A stretch of DNA of 64,000 bases, taken from Curtobacterium sp. L6-1. Its GTDB lineage: Bacteria; Actinomycetota; Actinomycetes; Actinomycetales; Microbacteriaceae. The DNA lies in contig NZ_CP076544.1 of the NCBI RefSeq assembly GCF_018885305.1, forward strand, positions 1,984,001 through 2,048,000, written 5' to 3'. Positions 14,337 through 18,773 of the stretch are shown here, piece after piece; the first letter of the stretch is position 1, and each line of letters opens with the position of its first letter. Made by a program: the position numbers and the translations under genes. Under the pieces are notes generated by a model, which had not been told where the DNA came from, made no database searches, and worked only from the letters and a program-made list of their open reading frames with translations.

Positions 14337-15113
14337 ATGACGACGAACACCGCCGAGAAGGCGACGACCCTGCAGTCCCTGCACGAAGCTCCCGAGATCC
14401 TCCGCGTGGTGAACGTGTGGGACGCGATCAGTGCGAAGACCGTCGCGGCCCTGCCCGAGACCCGGGCGATCGCCACCGCCGGCCATTCGATCGCGGCGTC
14501 CTACGGGTACGAGGACGGCGGCATGCCCCTCGAGCTCGCCCTCGCCGGCGCGAAGACCGTCGTGGACGCAGTCGACCTGCCCGTCACCGCGGACCTCGAC
14601 GACGGCTACGAGGACCCGGCCGAGACCATCCGCCGCGCGATCGGCCTGGGCATCGTCGGCGCGAACGTCGAGGACCGTCTTCGCCCCTTCGACGAGTCGG
14701 TCTCCCGCGTCGCCGCGATCATGAAGGCCGCCGAGCAGGAGGGCGTCGCCTTCCAGCTCAACGCCCGCACCGACGCGATCGCGAAGGGTGGCGACCGGCC
14801 GATCCAGGAGAGCATCGCCGACGCCATCGCACGCGGCAAGGCCTTCCTCGACGCGGGCGCCCCGCTCGTGTTCGTCCCGGGCGGCCACCAGCGCGAGGTC
14901 GTCGAGCAGCTCGTCGAGGGCCTTGGCCGCGGCAAGCTCAGCGTCATCGGGCTGCCCGGCGCCCTCCCCGCCACCGCGTATGAGGCGCTCGGCGTCGCAC
15001 GCATCTCGTACGGGCCGCTCACGCAGCGCGTGGCGCTCCGTGCGCTCCGCGACCTCGCGACGGACCTCTACGACGGCGGCGTCGTGCCCGAGGACACCCC
15101 GGTCCTCAACTGA
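14337..15113 (+). CDS. Isocitrate lyase/PEP mutase superfamily enzyme
   Basis: This 258-aa TIM-barrel protein belongs to the PEP mutase/2-methylisocitrate lyase superfamily. Key segments are VVNVWDAISAKTVAAL, TADLDDGYEDP (metal-binding acidic loop), GANVEDR and QLNARTDAI. It lacks the CGH cysteine signature of true isocitrate lyases, so lyase, hydrolase or mutase activity on an oxaloacetate-like compound is possible and not decided. TACTGT ends 7 nt before the ATG (leaderless pattern). Followed by two hairpins before the convergent amidase gene. Confidence 0.88.
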   Translation: MTTNTAEKATTLQSLHEAPEILRVVNVWDAISAKTVAALPETRAIATAGHSIAASYGYEDGGMPLELALAGAKTVVDAVDLPVTADLDDGYEDPAETIRRAIGLGIVGANVEDRLRPFDESVSRVAAIMKAAEQEGVAFQLNARTDAIAKGGDRPIQESIADAIARGKAFLDAGAPLVFVPGGHQREVVEQLVEGLGRGKLSVIGLPGALPATAYEALGVARISYGPLTQRVALRALRDLATDLYDGGVVPEDTPVLN

Positions 15114-15276: not shown

Positions 15277-17115
15277 TCACCCGAGCGCCGGGTACAGCGC
15301 CGGGCTGGTGCGGGCGTGCGTCGCCTGCTCGAACCCGTAGCCGAGACCGATGACGGCGCCCTCGTCGTAGGAGCGGCCGAGGAACTCCAGGTTCACGCCC
15401 GCCCCGGTGATCGTGGCGTCCGCCGCGGTGGCCTGTCCCATCGGGACGGTCACGGCCGGCATGCCGGTGTTCGGGCTGAGCCGCATGTTCGTGCCCTGCG
15501 TGCCGTACGGCGTGCCCGACGGGTAGACGAGCGCGTCGAGGTCCTGCGCGTCCATCATCCCGGTGACGACCTGCTTGCCGGTCGCGATCTGCGTCGTGTG
15601 CGAGCCCTCCGGACCCGCCCAGGCCTGGTACTGCGCCTCGGTGATCGCGTTCCGCTGCTGGTACGTACCCTTCCGGCTCGGCACGTACTTCCCCGAGTCG
15701 AGGATGCCCTGCAGCGAGCGCGCGGCGACGTCCGGGTCGAGGTGCTTCGCCACGTACTGGTCCAGGTCGTGCTTGAACTCGTTCGTGCTGCCGCTGCCCT
15801 CGCTGAGGACCCGGTCGAACTCGGGCGTCGCGGTGATCGGCACGACGGTCGCGCCCTGGGCCTCGAGGGTCGCCCGGGCCTCGGCGAAGAGCCGCGCGGT
15901 GGTTCGGTTCGTCCCCACCATCGAGGTGACGTAGCCGATCCGCTTGCCCTGCAGGGCCGTCGGGTCGAGGAACTGCGTGTACGAGGTCGAGACCTTGCCG
16001 GTCTGCCCCTGCGTGACGGGGTCGGCGGCGTCGACACCGGTGACGGCGTCGAGTGCCACGGCGGCGTCGGTCACCGAGCGGGCGATCGGCCCGCCGGTGT
16101 CCTGCGAGAGCGCGAGCGGGATGATGCCGTCACGGCTCGTCAGGCCGACCGTCGGGCGGATACCGACGAGTTGGTTGTACGACGACGGGATGCGGATGGA
16201 CCCGCCCGTGTCGGTGCCGAACCCGATGCCCGCCAGGTTGGCCGAGATGGCCGCACCGGTGCCGCCGCTGGACCCGCCGGCGGTCTGGCTCGTGACGTAC
16301 GGGCTGGCGACGAGGAGCGACGAGCCCGTCGGCTGGTTCGACGAGAACTCGGAGACGAAGCCGTAGGCGAACTCGTCGAGGCTCGCCTTCGCGAGGACGA
16401 CCGCCCCGGCCTTCCGCAGACCCGTCACCATCGCCGCGTCGGTCGTGGTCTGGTTGTCGTCCCAGCAGCCGCAGCCGCCGGTGGTCGGCATGTCCTTCGT
16501 GTCGTAGTTGTCCTTGAGCGCGATCGGGACGCCGAGGAGCATGCTCGTCATCCCGTTCGCGGCACGCTCGGCATCAGCGGCCTCCGCAGCGGCGATCGCC
16601 CCGGCGTTGGTCGTGACGATCGAGTTGAGCGGACGTCCGCCCGTCCCGGTGTCCGTGGTGGTCCGGTCGTACGCGGCGATGCGGTCGAGGTAGTCCTGCG
16701 TGATCTCGGCCGAGGTCGTGACCCCGGCGTTCATCGCGGCCTGCATGTCGAGGGTGGAGGCCTCGACGAGCGTGAACGGTCCGTCGTCGTAGATCATCCG
16801 CTGCGACAGACCGGCGACGTCCGTGAGCGTGATCGTCCCGTCACTGTCGGTGTCGGCGGCCGAGACCGCCGACCAGTCCGCGTCGGCGGTGGTGGCGCCG
16901 AGGTGGTCGGACAGGACGGTGAGGTCTGCGCGGGTGATCTGGTGGTCGCCGGTCAGGTCGAGCGCCGTGTAGTACGGGGCGAGCATGGCCGCGGGGCTGG
17001 CGTCGACCACGGCCGGTGCAGCGTTGGCGGCGAGCGAAGGGGTCGCGACGACGGCGGTGCCGACGAGGGCCAGGAGCGCGGCTCCGGCGACGGTGGTGCG
17101 ACGGCGGCGGGTCAC
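15277..17115 (-). CDS. Secreted amidase with an N-terminal dockerin-like domain
   Basis: A 612-aa amidase-signature enzyme. I choose GTG 17115, preceded by GGAGGAA; it gives a signal peptide (RRRR, hydrophobic core, cleavage near residue 32). Residues 53-64 and 88-99 are two calcium-loop repeats (DLTGDHQITRAD and DTDSDGTITLTD) in dockerin type I spacing. The amidase domain follows with catalytic Lys201, cis-Ser282 (GGSSGG) and nucleophile Ser306 (TDTGGSIRIP). Such enzymes hydrolyse amide bonds; the substrate here is unknown. An ATG at 17181 overlaps the upstream stop (ATGA) and is an alternative. Next to a cohesin-like surface protein, its probable docking partner. Confidence 0.9.
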   Translation of the reverse strand: MTRRRRTTVAGAALLALVGTAVVATPSLAANAAPAVVDASPAAMLAPYYTALDLTGDHQITRADLTVLSDHLGATTADADWSAVSAADTDSDGTITLTDVAGLSQRMIYDDGPFTLVEASTLDMQAAMNAGVTTSAEITQDYLDRIAAYDRTTTDTGTGGRPLNSIVTTNAGAIAAAEAADAERAANGMTSMLLGVPIALKDNYDTKDMPTTGGCGCWDDNQTTTDAAMVTGLRKAGAVVLAKASLDEFAYGFVSEFSSNQPTGSSLLVASPYVTSQTAGGSSGGTGAAISANLAGIGFGTDTGGSIRIPSSYNQLVGIRPTVGLTSRDGIIPLALSQDTGGPIARSVTDAAVALDAVTGVDAADPVTQGQTGKVSTSYTQFLDPTALQGKRIGYVTSMVGTNRTTARLFAEARATLEAQGATVVPITATPEFDRVLSEGSGSTNEFKHDLDQYVAKHLDPDVAARSLQGILDSGKYVPSRKGTYQQRNAITEAQYQAWAGPEGSHTTQIATGKQVVTGMMDAQDLDALVYPSGTPYGTQGTNMRLSPNTGMPAVTVPMGQATAADATITGAGVNLEFLGRSYDEGAVIGLGYGFEQATHARTSPALYPALG

Positions 17116-17177
17116 GGGGGTTCCTCCGGGGGTTCGGGTCGAGGTGGCGTCGGTCGCCTGGGTGCGGCCCGCGGCGG

Positions 17178-18005
17178 TCATCGCGCGTCCTCCGCACCGG
17201 CGGCACGGGAGGCACGGCGACGGGCCACGACGAGGCCGGCGCCGGCGAGGAGCAGGGCGACGCTGGCGGCGACCCACGGTGCGAGGTCGGCGCCGGTCCA
17301 CGCGAGGGCACCACCGGCGGGTGCCGCCGAGGTGTCGGTCACCGGGTCCACGGACCCACCGGCGCCCGTTCCGGTCCCGGTCCCGGTGCCGCCGGTCCCG
17401 CCCGGGACAGTGCTCGGCGTCGCGGTCGGCGCAGCCGTGGGCGTGCTGGGAGGGCCGGCGGTCGGCGTCGGGCTCGGCGTCGGGACCGCGGCGATCGTCA
17501 CGGTCGTCGAGGCCGGGTCGGTCAGGGTGGTGGTGCTGCCGTCGGTGGCGACCAGGGTGACGCTCGTGACGGCGAGGTCGACCGTGGCGGGGCTCGTCGC
17601 GGTCAGCTCGACCGATGCGGCGAGGTCACCGGACACTGCGGGCGAGGTGCCGAGGCGGGTGTGCAGGAGCGTGACGGTGTCGCCGTCCTGCTCGACCGAG
17701 TCGAACCCGCCGTCCGGGCCGGTCGCGCTGCCGTCCACGACCTCGACGGCGTCGGCGTCCGCCGCGATCTCGATCTGGTAGGCGAAGACATCGGTCGTGT
17801 CGGGCAGGGTCAGGGCGACGTCGACCGTGTCGCCGACCGTCACGGAGGCCGGTGCGGTGATCGTGGCCGTCGTGGCGATCGGTGCCGCTGCGGCCGGTGA
17901 CGCGGCGAGGACGGCGAGTCCGACGCCTCCCGCGGTGACGAGGGCCGTGCGGAGTGTGGTCAGGCGGGTGGTCGGGCGGGAGCGGAGCCGAGTGCGGTGC
18001 TGCAT
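17178..18005 (-). CDS. Cohesin-like domain protein with LAxTG sortase signal
   Basis: This 275-aa protein has an N-terminal signal peptide ending near residue 41 (AAAAP), one cohesin-like beta-sandwich domain (about 45-155, with VTVGDTVDVALTL and FAYQIEIAADADAVEVV), then a Thr/Pro linker and a Gly/Thr linker. The C-terminus is a wall-sorting signal: LAWTG at 234-238, a hydrophobic helix, and a RRR-containing tail. LAxTG is the motif used by class E sortases of actinobacteria. The start ATG 18005 has AAGGAC upstream. Its stop is 62 nt before the amidase GTG start. Inference: it displays the dockerin-bearing amidase on the cell surface. No sortase gene is in the window. Confidence 0.82.
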   Translation of the reverse strand: MQHRTRLRSRPTTRLTTLRTALVTAGGVGLAVLAASPAAAAPIATTATITAPASVTVGDTVDVALTLPDTTDVFAYQIEIAADADAVEVVDGSATGPDGGFDSVEQDGDTVTLLHTRLGTSPAVSGDLAASVELTATSPATVDLAVTSVTLVATDGSTTTLTDPASTTVTIAAVPTPSPTPTAGPPSTPTAAPTATPSTVPGGTGGTGTGTGTGAGGSVDPVTDTSAAPAGGALAWTGADLAPWVAASVALLLAGAGLVVARRRASRAAGAEDAR

Positions 18006-18149: not shown

Positions 18150-18773
18150 ATGCCACTCGACGTCGACGCCCTGTTGACCCCGCCGACGAACACCGCCGCG
18201 CGGGCGCTCGACGTCGTCCGGACGTGGTCGTCACCGGCCCTCGTGCACCACTGCCTCCGTTCCTGGGTGTGGGCGACGCTGCTCGCGCCCACGATCGACC
18301 TCGAGCCGGACGCGGAGTTGCTGTTCGTGGCGACGATGCTCCACGACCTCGGGGTCGCCCCGCACTTCGACGCGGTCACCGTCCCGTTCGAGGTCGCCGG
18401 CGGAGCAGTGGGCAGCGTCTTCGCCACGGGCGCTGGGTGGCCCGTCGCGCGCGCGACCCGCGTCGCCGAGGTGATCGAGCGGCACATGTGGCTGTCGGTC
18501 GACCCGACGAGGGACGTCGAGGGGCACCTGCTCGAGGTCGCGACGTCCCTCGACGTGTCCGGCGTCGGGATGGAGCGTTGGGACGAGGACGACCTCCGCG
18601 CCGTGACCGCGGCGCTCCCCCGGCAGGGCTTCTTCGACGCATTCGACGGCCTCGTGACGGACCAGGCCGGGCGGAAGCCGGACTCCGCGGCTGCACGCTT
18701 GCACCGCTCCGGGAACGTGCGACTCGGAGGCGAGCGTTGGGCGGGCCTCCTGGCCGGCGGGACCGGAAACTGA
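18150..18773 (+). CDS. HD-domain hydrolase
   Basis: This 207-aa protein has an HD phosphohydrolase fold: His33-His34 on the first helix and His65-Asp66 in TMLHDLG, followed by a further helix with ERHMW. Related small HD proteins include cyanamide hydratase-like enzymes, and the VHHCLRSW segment resembles that group; the reaction is not proven. TAGCGT ends 6 nt before the ATG, the leaderless pattern. Divergent from the cohesin-like gene. Confidence 0.82.
   Translation: MPLDVDALLTPPTNTAARALDVVRTWSSPALVHHCLRSWVWATLLAPTIDLEPDAELLFVATMLHDLGVAPHFDAVTVPFEVAGGAVGSVFATGAGWPVARATRVAEVIERHMWLSVDPTRDVEGHLLEVATSLDVSGVGMERWDEDDLRAVTAALPRQGFFDAFDGLVTDQAGRKPDSAAARLHRSGNVRLGGERWAGLLAGGTGN

Follow-up and report, generated by a model that had tools for sequence, protein, structure and literature searches.

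A cohesin protein with a wall-sorting signal and a dockerin-bearing amidase: a putative one-enzyme surface tether in Curtobacterium and its relatives

Most of what is known of cohesins and dockerins comes from the multi-enzyme complexes with which anaerobes degrade polysaccharides. Here we describe two neighboring genes of Curtobacterium sp. L6-1 (Microbacteriaceae; assembly GCF_018885305.1) within a window of 64,000 nucleotides (contig NZ_CP076544.1, positions 1,984,001 to 2,048,000, forward strand), the stretch of DNA to whose first letter all positions below refer unless another contig is named. Gene 1 encodes a cohesin protein with an LAWTG wall-sorting signal, and gene 2 a predicted secreted amidase that carries a dockerin. 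The pair is not accidental, and we consider it likely, judging from the encoded proteins, that the two form a minimal surface-tethering system in which the amidase would be held at the cell wall through a cohesin-dockerin plug and socket.

Two genes and their modules

Both genes lie on the minus strand (Table 1). Gene 1 runs from an ATG at 18005 to a stop codon at 17178-17180, and the alternative ATG start of gene 2, at 17181, overlaps that stop codon. A promoter scan at the locus found none, and the one terminator-like site lies on the opposite strand and is within chance expectation. The initial annotation had described gene 1 as a secreted cohesin-like module followed by LAWTG, a helix and a basic tail, and gene 2 as a secreted amidase with two dockerin-type calcium loops; the first description is borne out by the open reading frame (ORF), PF00963 and NF058582, the second by PF01425, PF00404 and both loops. 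The profile searches that it had proposed for the two modules both gave scores over the cut-off, and the class E sortase that it had suggested looking for is present in the genome.

The cohesin domain of gene 1 scores 26.7 bits for PF00963 (cut-off 24.1; 28.7 bits in a genome-wide scan), and gene 2 scores 24.7 bits for PF00404 (Dockerin_1; cut-off 22.9). Because both scores exceed their cut-offs by little, the two modules were examined further. An AlphaFold2 (AF2) model of the gene 1 domain (window 17475-17897, 53 sequences) reached a predicted local distance difference test score (pLDDT) of 93.7 and a predicted template-modeling score (pTM) of 0.86. When this model was compared with the PDB by Foldseek, ranks 1-25 were all cohesins, headed by the Clostridium perfringens cohesin 2jh2 (E 3.1e-8), with 2vo8 at TM scores of 0.74/0.77; model and comparison together predict the cohesin beta-sandwich (jelly-roll) fold. 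By single sequence the nearest PDB chains were the C. perfringens NagJ cohesins (E 0.005), which a ten-sequence cohesin profile found at about 1e-6, the type II cohesin dyad 3l8q standing first at 3e-7.

The C-terminus of gene 1 has the complete layout of a class E sortase substrate, with LAxTG, then a hydrophobic helix, then a basic tail ending the protein as ARRRASRAAGAEDAR, and it matches the NCBIfam LAVTG anchor domain NF058582 (28.3 bits, cut-off 27). LAXTG is the signal used by class E sortases (PMC5148588). The host genome, a single contig of 3,402,814 bases, holds two genes with a sortase domain, of which L004 is identified as class E by NF033747 (228.6 bits, cut-off 160). The other, L005 (C1:245932-246183), scores 65.5 bits, below the same cut-off, and is without the TLTACHP stretch of L004, which we take to hold the active-site cysteine; the protein is possibly inactive.

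Gene 2 encodes a signal peptide, a dockerin and an amidase, in that order. Dockerin_1 is the sole calcium-loop model over its cut-off, EF-hand models staying under theirs, and both loops fit the dockerin pattern of D, N or T at positions 1, 3 and 5 and D at 12. Among 211 distinct modules, which were gathered with a dockerin profile so that their loop conservation is partly selection, the commonest residues of loop 1 at positions 1, 3, 5 and 12 are D, T, D and D (96, 91, 95 and 100%), and Asp occupies the same positions of loop 2 in 100, 93, 91 and 100%. In a fusion relative (L185, see below) the dockerin is predicted with high pLDDT as loop-helix, short helix, loop-helix (helices 185-193, 204-210 and 220-228).

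The nearest PDB relative of the amidase domain is a peptide amidase (5ac3/1m21, E 3.5e-70), and we read the enzyme as a predicted amide hydrolase that resembles peptide amidases and would act outside the cell. The score for indoleacetamide hydrolase, 209.7, lies far below the cut-off of 532. Tentatively, and without pressing the point, we would expect the enzyme to deamidate peptides or small amides of other kinds in the surroundings of the cell; the cell's own peptidoglycan amides are a second candidate.

Gene 1 is the only cohesin over the cut-off in the host genome and gene 2 the only dockerin, a second partial dockerin match (E 0.28) falling below it. The scan for domains over the cut-offs found no multi-cohesin scaffoldin in this genome. 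Thus, where a one-enzyme version of cellulosome architecture had been proposed, the cohesin/dockerin pairing stands at the level of genes, and the system, with its one cohesin and one dockerin, is not a cellulosome. These counts also bear on the idea that the anchored cohesin is a scaffold for several partners, taking other dockerin proteins, or that dockerin-amidases chain head to tail. Fusions with both modules (below) could indeed polymerize; with a sole dockerin over the cut-off in the genome and one cohesin in the anchor protein, we regard such a scaffold as scarcely probable.

Table 1. Positions of the two genes, their parts and the flanking genes in the window
Feature	Position	Strand	Basis or remark
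Gene 1, encoding 275 amino acids (aa), cohesin protein that carries the LAWTG wall-sorting signal	17178..18005	-	ORF, PF00963 match, orthologues in 22/66 genus genomes
Signal peptide of gene 1, end approximate	17883..18005	-	sequence reading: basic N-terminus, then a hydrophobic core and a cleavage region with AAA
Cohesin domain of gene 1	17499..17870	-	PF00963 genome placement converted to window coordinates
HTRLGTSP, best-conserved stretch of this group of cohesins (strand 6 end plus 6-7 loop)	17640..17663	-	
Low-complexity Thr/Pro/Gly linker of gene 1	17307..17498	-	sequence
LAWTG sorting motif, gene 1 residues 234-238	17292..17306	-	sequence; class E sortase LAxTG type
Hydrophobic helix and basic tail of gene 1 sorting signal	17181..17291	-	sequence; NF058582
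Gene 2, predicted secreted dockerin-amidase	15277..17115	-	612 aa from GTG 17115; 634 aa with ATG 17181
Ribosome-binding site GGAGG of gene 2	17123..17127	-	sequence; 7 nucleotides 5' of GTG 17115
Dockerin module of gene 2	16798..16959	-	PF00404 genome placement converted to window coordinates
Calcium loop 1, DLTGDHQITRAD	16924..16959	-	sequence
Calcium loop 2, DTDSDGTITLTD	16819..16854	-	sequence
Amidase-signature domain	15415..16707	-	PF01425, 257.5 bits (cut-off 27), E 3.5e-76
Catalytic motifs KDN (16507-16515), GGSSGG (16261-16278) and DTGGSIR (16192-16212)	16192..16515	-	motif positions; taken to carry Lys, cis-Ser and Ser of amidase-signature enzymes
Flanking gene, isocitrate lyase/phosphoenolpyruvate (PEP) mutase-like	14337-15110	+	presumed type, from the sequence
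Flanking gene, HD-type	18150-18770	+	presumed type, from the sequence

Inheritance as a unit, rearrangement and fusion

Orthologues of the amidase (78-100% identity) occur in 22 of the 66 genomes of the genus and those of the cohesin protein (53-100% identity, E<=6.1e-62) in the identical 22, the other 44 having neither. At E<=1e-30 the amidase search matched all 66 genomes, 44 of them only through another amidase of about 33-43% identity, presumably without a dockerin, of which the host genome has only one over the cut-off. The cohesin search at E<=0.001 matched 53 of 66, 31 only at E>=1.8e-8 and mostly in linker or tail regions of other proteins. Across the order we searched with one profile for the cohesin (A1) and one for the dockerin plus linker (A2): the cohesin (E<=1e-28) was found in 20 of 396 genomes and the dockerin-amidase (E<=1e-35) in the identical 20, the genes being adjacent in 18, fused in one (G495) and split across two contigs in one (G688). 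Assuming independence, the probability of such identical sets is 5e-18 in the genus and 4e-34 in the order, values that serve only as a guide because the genomes are not independent. A single-gene artefact is ruled out, orthologues of both genes keeping the same architecture in many genomes.

Several weaker matches in the order set were not counted: a cohesin-profile match without partner in G560 (E 4.8e-5); matches in eight genomes (E 6e-10 to 9e-9) covering only positions 65-111 of A2, that is, linker and amidase start without calcium loops; a second A2 match in G373 (positions 14-110, E 1.8e-11), which is another amidase with no calcium loops seen; and an additional match in G526 covering only 73-111. 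In a family sample of 249 genomes, 11 had a cohesin and 13 a dockerin over the Pfam cut-off, and 10 had both. Four genomes had one of the two domains over the cut-off (G021, G098, G160, G210), and A1 and A2 recovered both genes in all of them; two more (G132, G185) hold cohesin/dockerin-amidase pairs that score below the Pfam cut-offs, and in G056 the amidase sits at a contig start and no cohesin was seen. Other lineages (G351, G531, G572, G149) have the two genes in the opposite order, still linked. We also noted, in five genomes of genus g8 (G007, G090, G153, G203, G248), small frames of 221-311 aa (L017-L021, L023, L024) with partial cohesin matches under the cut-off (E 0.002-0.005) that belong to a different group; a dockerin search of these genomes at E<=0.01 gave no match.

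The two genes are gained or lost together as one 2.9-kb cassette. In 12 of the 22 pair-bearing genomes of the genus, in which both flanking genes are neighbors of the pair on one contig, the flank-to-flank distance is 2866-3039 bp; the flanks neighbor each other in 18 of the 44 pair-free genomes, with a gap of 80-179 bp in 17. The eighteenth (G308) has another gene between the flanks (L265), encoding a large protein that resembles a surface protein with cell-wall-binding repeats. The site between the flanking genes may be a hotspot for surface genes.

A scan of genome contigs with a fusion alignment (A5) yielded 98 confirmed loci, of which 80 were kept; loci with a cohesin were possibly favored because the query included one. 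The cohesin gene stands beside the dockerin-amidase on the same strand in 69 of the 80, upstream in 68 and downstream in one. The remainder comprises two single-frame loci, seven cut by contig ends and two truncated amidases. One single-frame locus, L185, is a clear fusion; the other, L223, reads through an out-of-frame tail between the cohesin and the amidase signal peptide and probably represents two genes joined by a frameshift. At the seven cut loci (L198, L200, L227, L237, L240, L244, L248) the amidase match begins 65-437 bases from the contig end, where assemblies may break because of the low-complexity linker that the cohesin gene encodes. The amidases of L232 and L264 are 5'-truncated, the former retaining one calcium loop and the latter no dockerin, with no cohesin within either locus.

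Genera with the pair include Microbacterium, Cellulosimicrobium, Cellulomonas, Curtobacterium, Leifsonia, Herbiconiux, Frigoribacterium, Mycetocola, Georgenia and Oerskovia. A 2013 genome paper reports the cellulomonads examined there as being without dockerins or cohesins (PMC3544764); the pair is present in Cellulomonas telluris, C. phragmiteti and C. avistercoris. Near-actinobacterial versions also appear under the names Stenotrophomonas maltophilia P13 (L240), Neobacillus citreus (P0037 and P0105) and Sphingomonas sp. LR61 (P0014), records that are possibly mislabelled or contaminated.

The fused gene of G495 (L171:201-2984) encodes a single chain that begins with a signal peptide and continues through dockerin, amidase and cohesin to LAVTG, a helix and a basic tail. 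Used as a query, it matched 4,926 proteins at E<=1e-40, 120 of which were listed and 116 of these new. Among the 116 listed relatives, 46 read dockerin-amidase-cohesin, 16 cohesin-dockerin-amidase and 50 dockerin-amidase alone; the other four have cohesin and amidase without coverage of both calcium loops and were excluded from the fusion count. Three-module fusions thus number at least 62, since P0259, one of the 50 that are cohesin-free by profile, passes the Pfam cohesin cut-off. Sources include Nocardioides, a metagenome-assembled genome of Bifidobacteriaceae, Microcella, Microbacterium hominis and Paenibacillus.

Three relatives (P0242, P0259, P0261) have a cohesin followed directly by dockerin and amidase in one chain, which suggests that the trio reaches Bacillota. 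The cohesin of the Paenibacillus proteins P0242 and P0261 was called by profile A1 (E 2e-8 and 6e-8); a Pfam search of P0242 at E<=0.01 found no cohesin, while P0259, 73% identical to it, has a Pfam match. Two others, P0208 (Microcella daejeonensis) and P0217, are single ORFs in which a cohesin is followed by LSATG or LSVTG, a basic tail, a second signal-like stretch and the dockerin-amidase; it is possible that these are polyproteins maturing into a two-part system.

A tether at the wall and its alternatives

Co-inheritance, cassette-like presence or absence and natural fusion together indicate that the genes form one functional unit. Because the order of the parts changes and fusion recurs, we see them as linked through function, not chance neighborhood, and the pair goes beyond chance because it joins the sole cohesin and the sole dockerin of the host genome and is conserved in other genera. 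Based on these observations, we suggest the following sequence of events. Both proteins would be exported, and the class E sortase would cut LAWTG between T and G, joining the cohesin protein to peptidoglycan. The amidase would fold outside the cell, where its dockerin would bind calcium and plug 1:1 into the cohesin, probably on the face formed by strands 5-6-3-8. The tethered enzyme would then remain at the wall rather than diffuse off.

Strands 5-6-3-8 form the dockerin-binding face of known cohesin complexes. In the cohesins studied here this sheet averages 2.23 bits of conservation against 1.58 for the other, a difference matched by 62 of 20,000 residue permutations, in which adjoining residues are not independent. 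The most conserved residues include GGF, H-T-R-L-G-x-S-P and Tyr40, which lie in strands 3, 5 and 6 and the adjoining loops.

Several observations weigh against a tether of this kind. Co-inheritance of adjacent genes is also expected from plain linkage in one lineage, and genomes are non-independent samples. The AF2 model of the natural fusion fragment L185, comprising cohesin and dockerin (244 aa, 87 alignment rows), has two good domains (pLDDT 86.7) and shows no confident docking between them (pTM 0.59), so that an intramolecular complex in this fragment was set aside as unsupported. An alignment of the model by VIA-align listed mostly cohesins; 4fl4_L and 3kcp_A, which we take to hold cohesin and X-dockerin within one chain, aligned over 205 and 200 residues with root-mean-square deviations of 18 and 20 and are uninformative on orientation. 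At L211 of Isoptericola sp. AK164, which lies on the contig of G351, the gene order is reversed with the amidase first, and the cohesin protein shows no sorting signal. Finally, PDB sequence searches with the calcium module, among them one with the dockerin profile, returned calmodulins and calmodulin-based constructs, with no dockerin in the best 60 of 191 rows. In 60 of the 62 single-chain fusions, L[AP]x[TS]G is missing from the last 60 residues (P0185 and P0194 have it), a count that may be affected by records cut at contig ends; such anchoring is thus not universal.

The calmodulin matches would suit an arrangement with no cohesin-dockerin bond at all, in which the calcium module is an EF-hand-like stabilizer of the amidase and the cohesin-like protein acts separately in the same pathway, for example as a substrate binder. 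EF-hands usually carry Glu at loop position 12, and the modules gathered here have Asp there in both loops (100% after rounding, 211 distinct modules). This, the scores of Dockerin_1 over and EF-hand models under their cut-offs, the agreement of the cohesin profile and fold with true cohesins, and the fact that the two modules co-occur and fuse make a pair without the bond very improbable.

The fusions raise another alternative, that the couple is a clasp, a structural part of the amidase subfamily that works in cis or in trans to stabilize or activate the enzyme, with a sorting signal of secondary importance in the split form. That 62 of the 116 listed relatives hold cohesin, both loops and amidase in one chain, with the cohesin C-terminal in 46 and N-terminal in 16, is consistent with such a role, as is the rarity of a C-terminal motif among them. 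Incidental anchoring is hard to square with the separate cohesin proteins, 65 of 69 of which carry L[APS]x[TS]G within their last 60 residues, and AF2 left the clasp unclosed in the L185 fragment; on balance we think a clasp unlikely. Two further separate cohesin proteins (L228, L255) end in LGATG and LTATG with a helix and basic tail. No sorting signal was found in the other two, L211 and L207 (Demequina), the latter having a frame that stops inside the domain (columns 1-82 of 135) in the manner of a frameshift.

We therefore retain the wall tether for the split form, where co-inheritance, the cassette and the fusions speak for it. The tether proposed in the initial annotation would account for the split form and not for every member of the family, since single polypeptides can contain the couple as well and most of these show no C-terminal motif. 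The Curtobacterium pair is probably a real and widespread one-enzyme cohesin-dockerin tether outside polysaccharide degradation, of which we infer the binding, the wall attachment and the substrate. A broader view, which we offer as plausible at somewhat less than even strength, is that one subfamily of extracellular amidases in Actinomycetota and Bacillota has in the cohesin-dockerin bond an old and general device that does not depend on polysaccharide breakdown. The bond would be used both in cis, with the cohesin preceding the dockerin or following the amidase, and in trans, on a sortase-anchored protein. The Curtobacterium pair would then be a split protein held together and on the wall, and the Microcella-type ORFs polyproteins that mature into halves.

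Relation to known cohesin systems

In public records, individual proteins already go under the names "cohesin domain-containing" and "amidase family protein". ScaE of Ruminococcus flavefaciens contains a single cohesin. As PMC12484212 describes it, ScaE is, like the predicted product of gene 1, a sortase-fixed wall cohesin protein that receives dockerin-bearing partners; it differs in serving a large, many-part cellulosome and in its LPXTG signal, whereas the Curtobacterium system, known here from its genes, is actinobacterial and has one cohesin for one amidase, with LAWTG as its class E signal. A literature search of mostly freely accessible papers, judged by titles and the openings of abstracts, found none on a dockerin-bearing amidase or on this pair.

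The C. perfringens cohesins are the closest in the PDB to gene 1, both by single-sequence search and by fold. The cohesin/dockerin complexes of glycosidases in that species (NagJ/GH84C X82 cohesin; 2jh2, 2w1n, 2ozn) share with the Curtobacterium pair their non-cellulosomal setting and single cohesins, and PMC12997984 gives a glycoside hydrolase domain to each of the five cohesin proteins of one strain; in Curtobacterium, by contrast, the cohesin is by itself on a predicted wall anchor, with an amidase as its putative partner. cSca5 of the Limousia mucinolysome (same paper) is similar as a predicted sortase-anchored (LPxTG) cohesin and as a cellulosome-like plan on a new substrate, and unlike the present system in being multi-enzyme and from gut anaerobes, against one enzyme in soil and plant actinobacteria. 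The chaplins of Streptomyces likewise combine an LAxTG signal with a class E sortase (PMC5148588); they act in aerial hypha formation, whereas the cargo of gene 1 would be a socket for an enzyme.

The cohesin of Archaeoglobus fulgidus (2xdh) also lies outside cellulose degradation and is non-cellulosomal, and differs in being archaeal. We know of no sortase anchor or amidase associated with it. Among solved structures, the amidase domain as a whole is closest to peptide amidase Pam (1m21, 1m22, 5ac3), whose chains (503-514 aa) match residues 112-605 of gene 2, the amidase part only, and leave the dockerin part unmatched.

If our reading is correct, the one-socket, one-enzyme form is the smallest working version of the cellulosomal plan, in soil and plant actinobacteria, and would provide dozens of natural cognate pairs and fusions for studies of specificity, a simple means of displaying enzymes on high-GC Gram-positive bacteria and a testable new client for class E sortases. 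The parts are ordinary and individually annotated; what is new in comparison with the systems above is a ScaE-like anchored cohesin with one amidase, a class E anchor, an actinobacterial spread and single-chain forms that appear to reach Bacillota.

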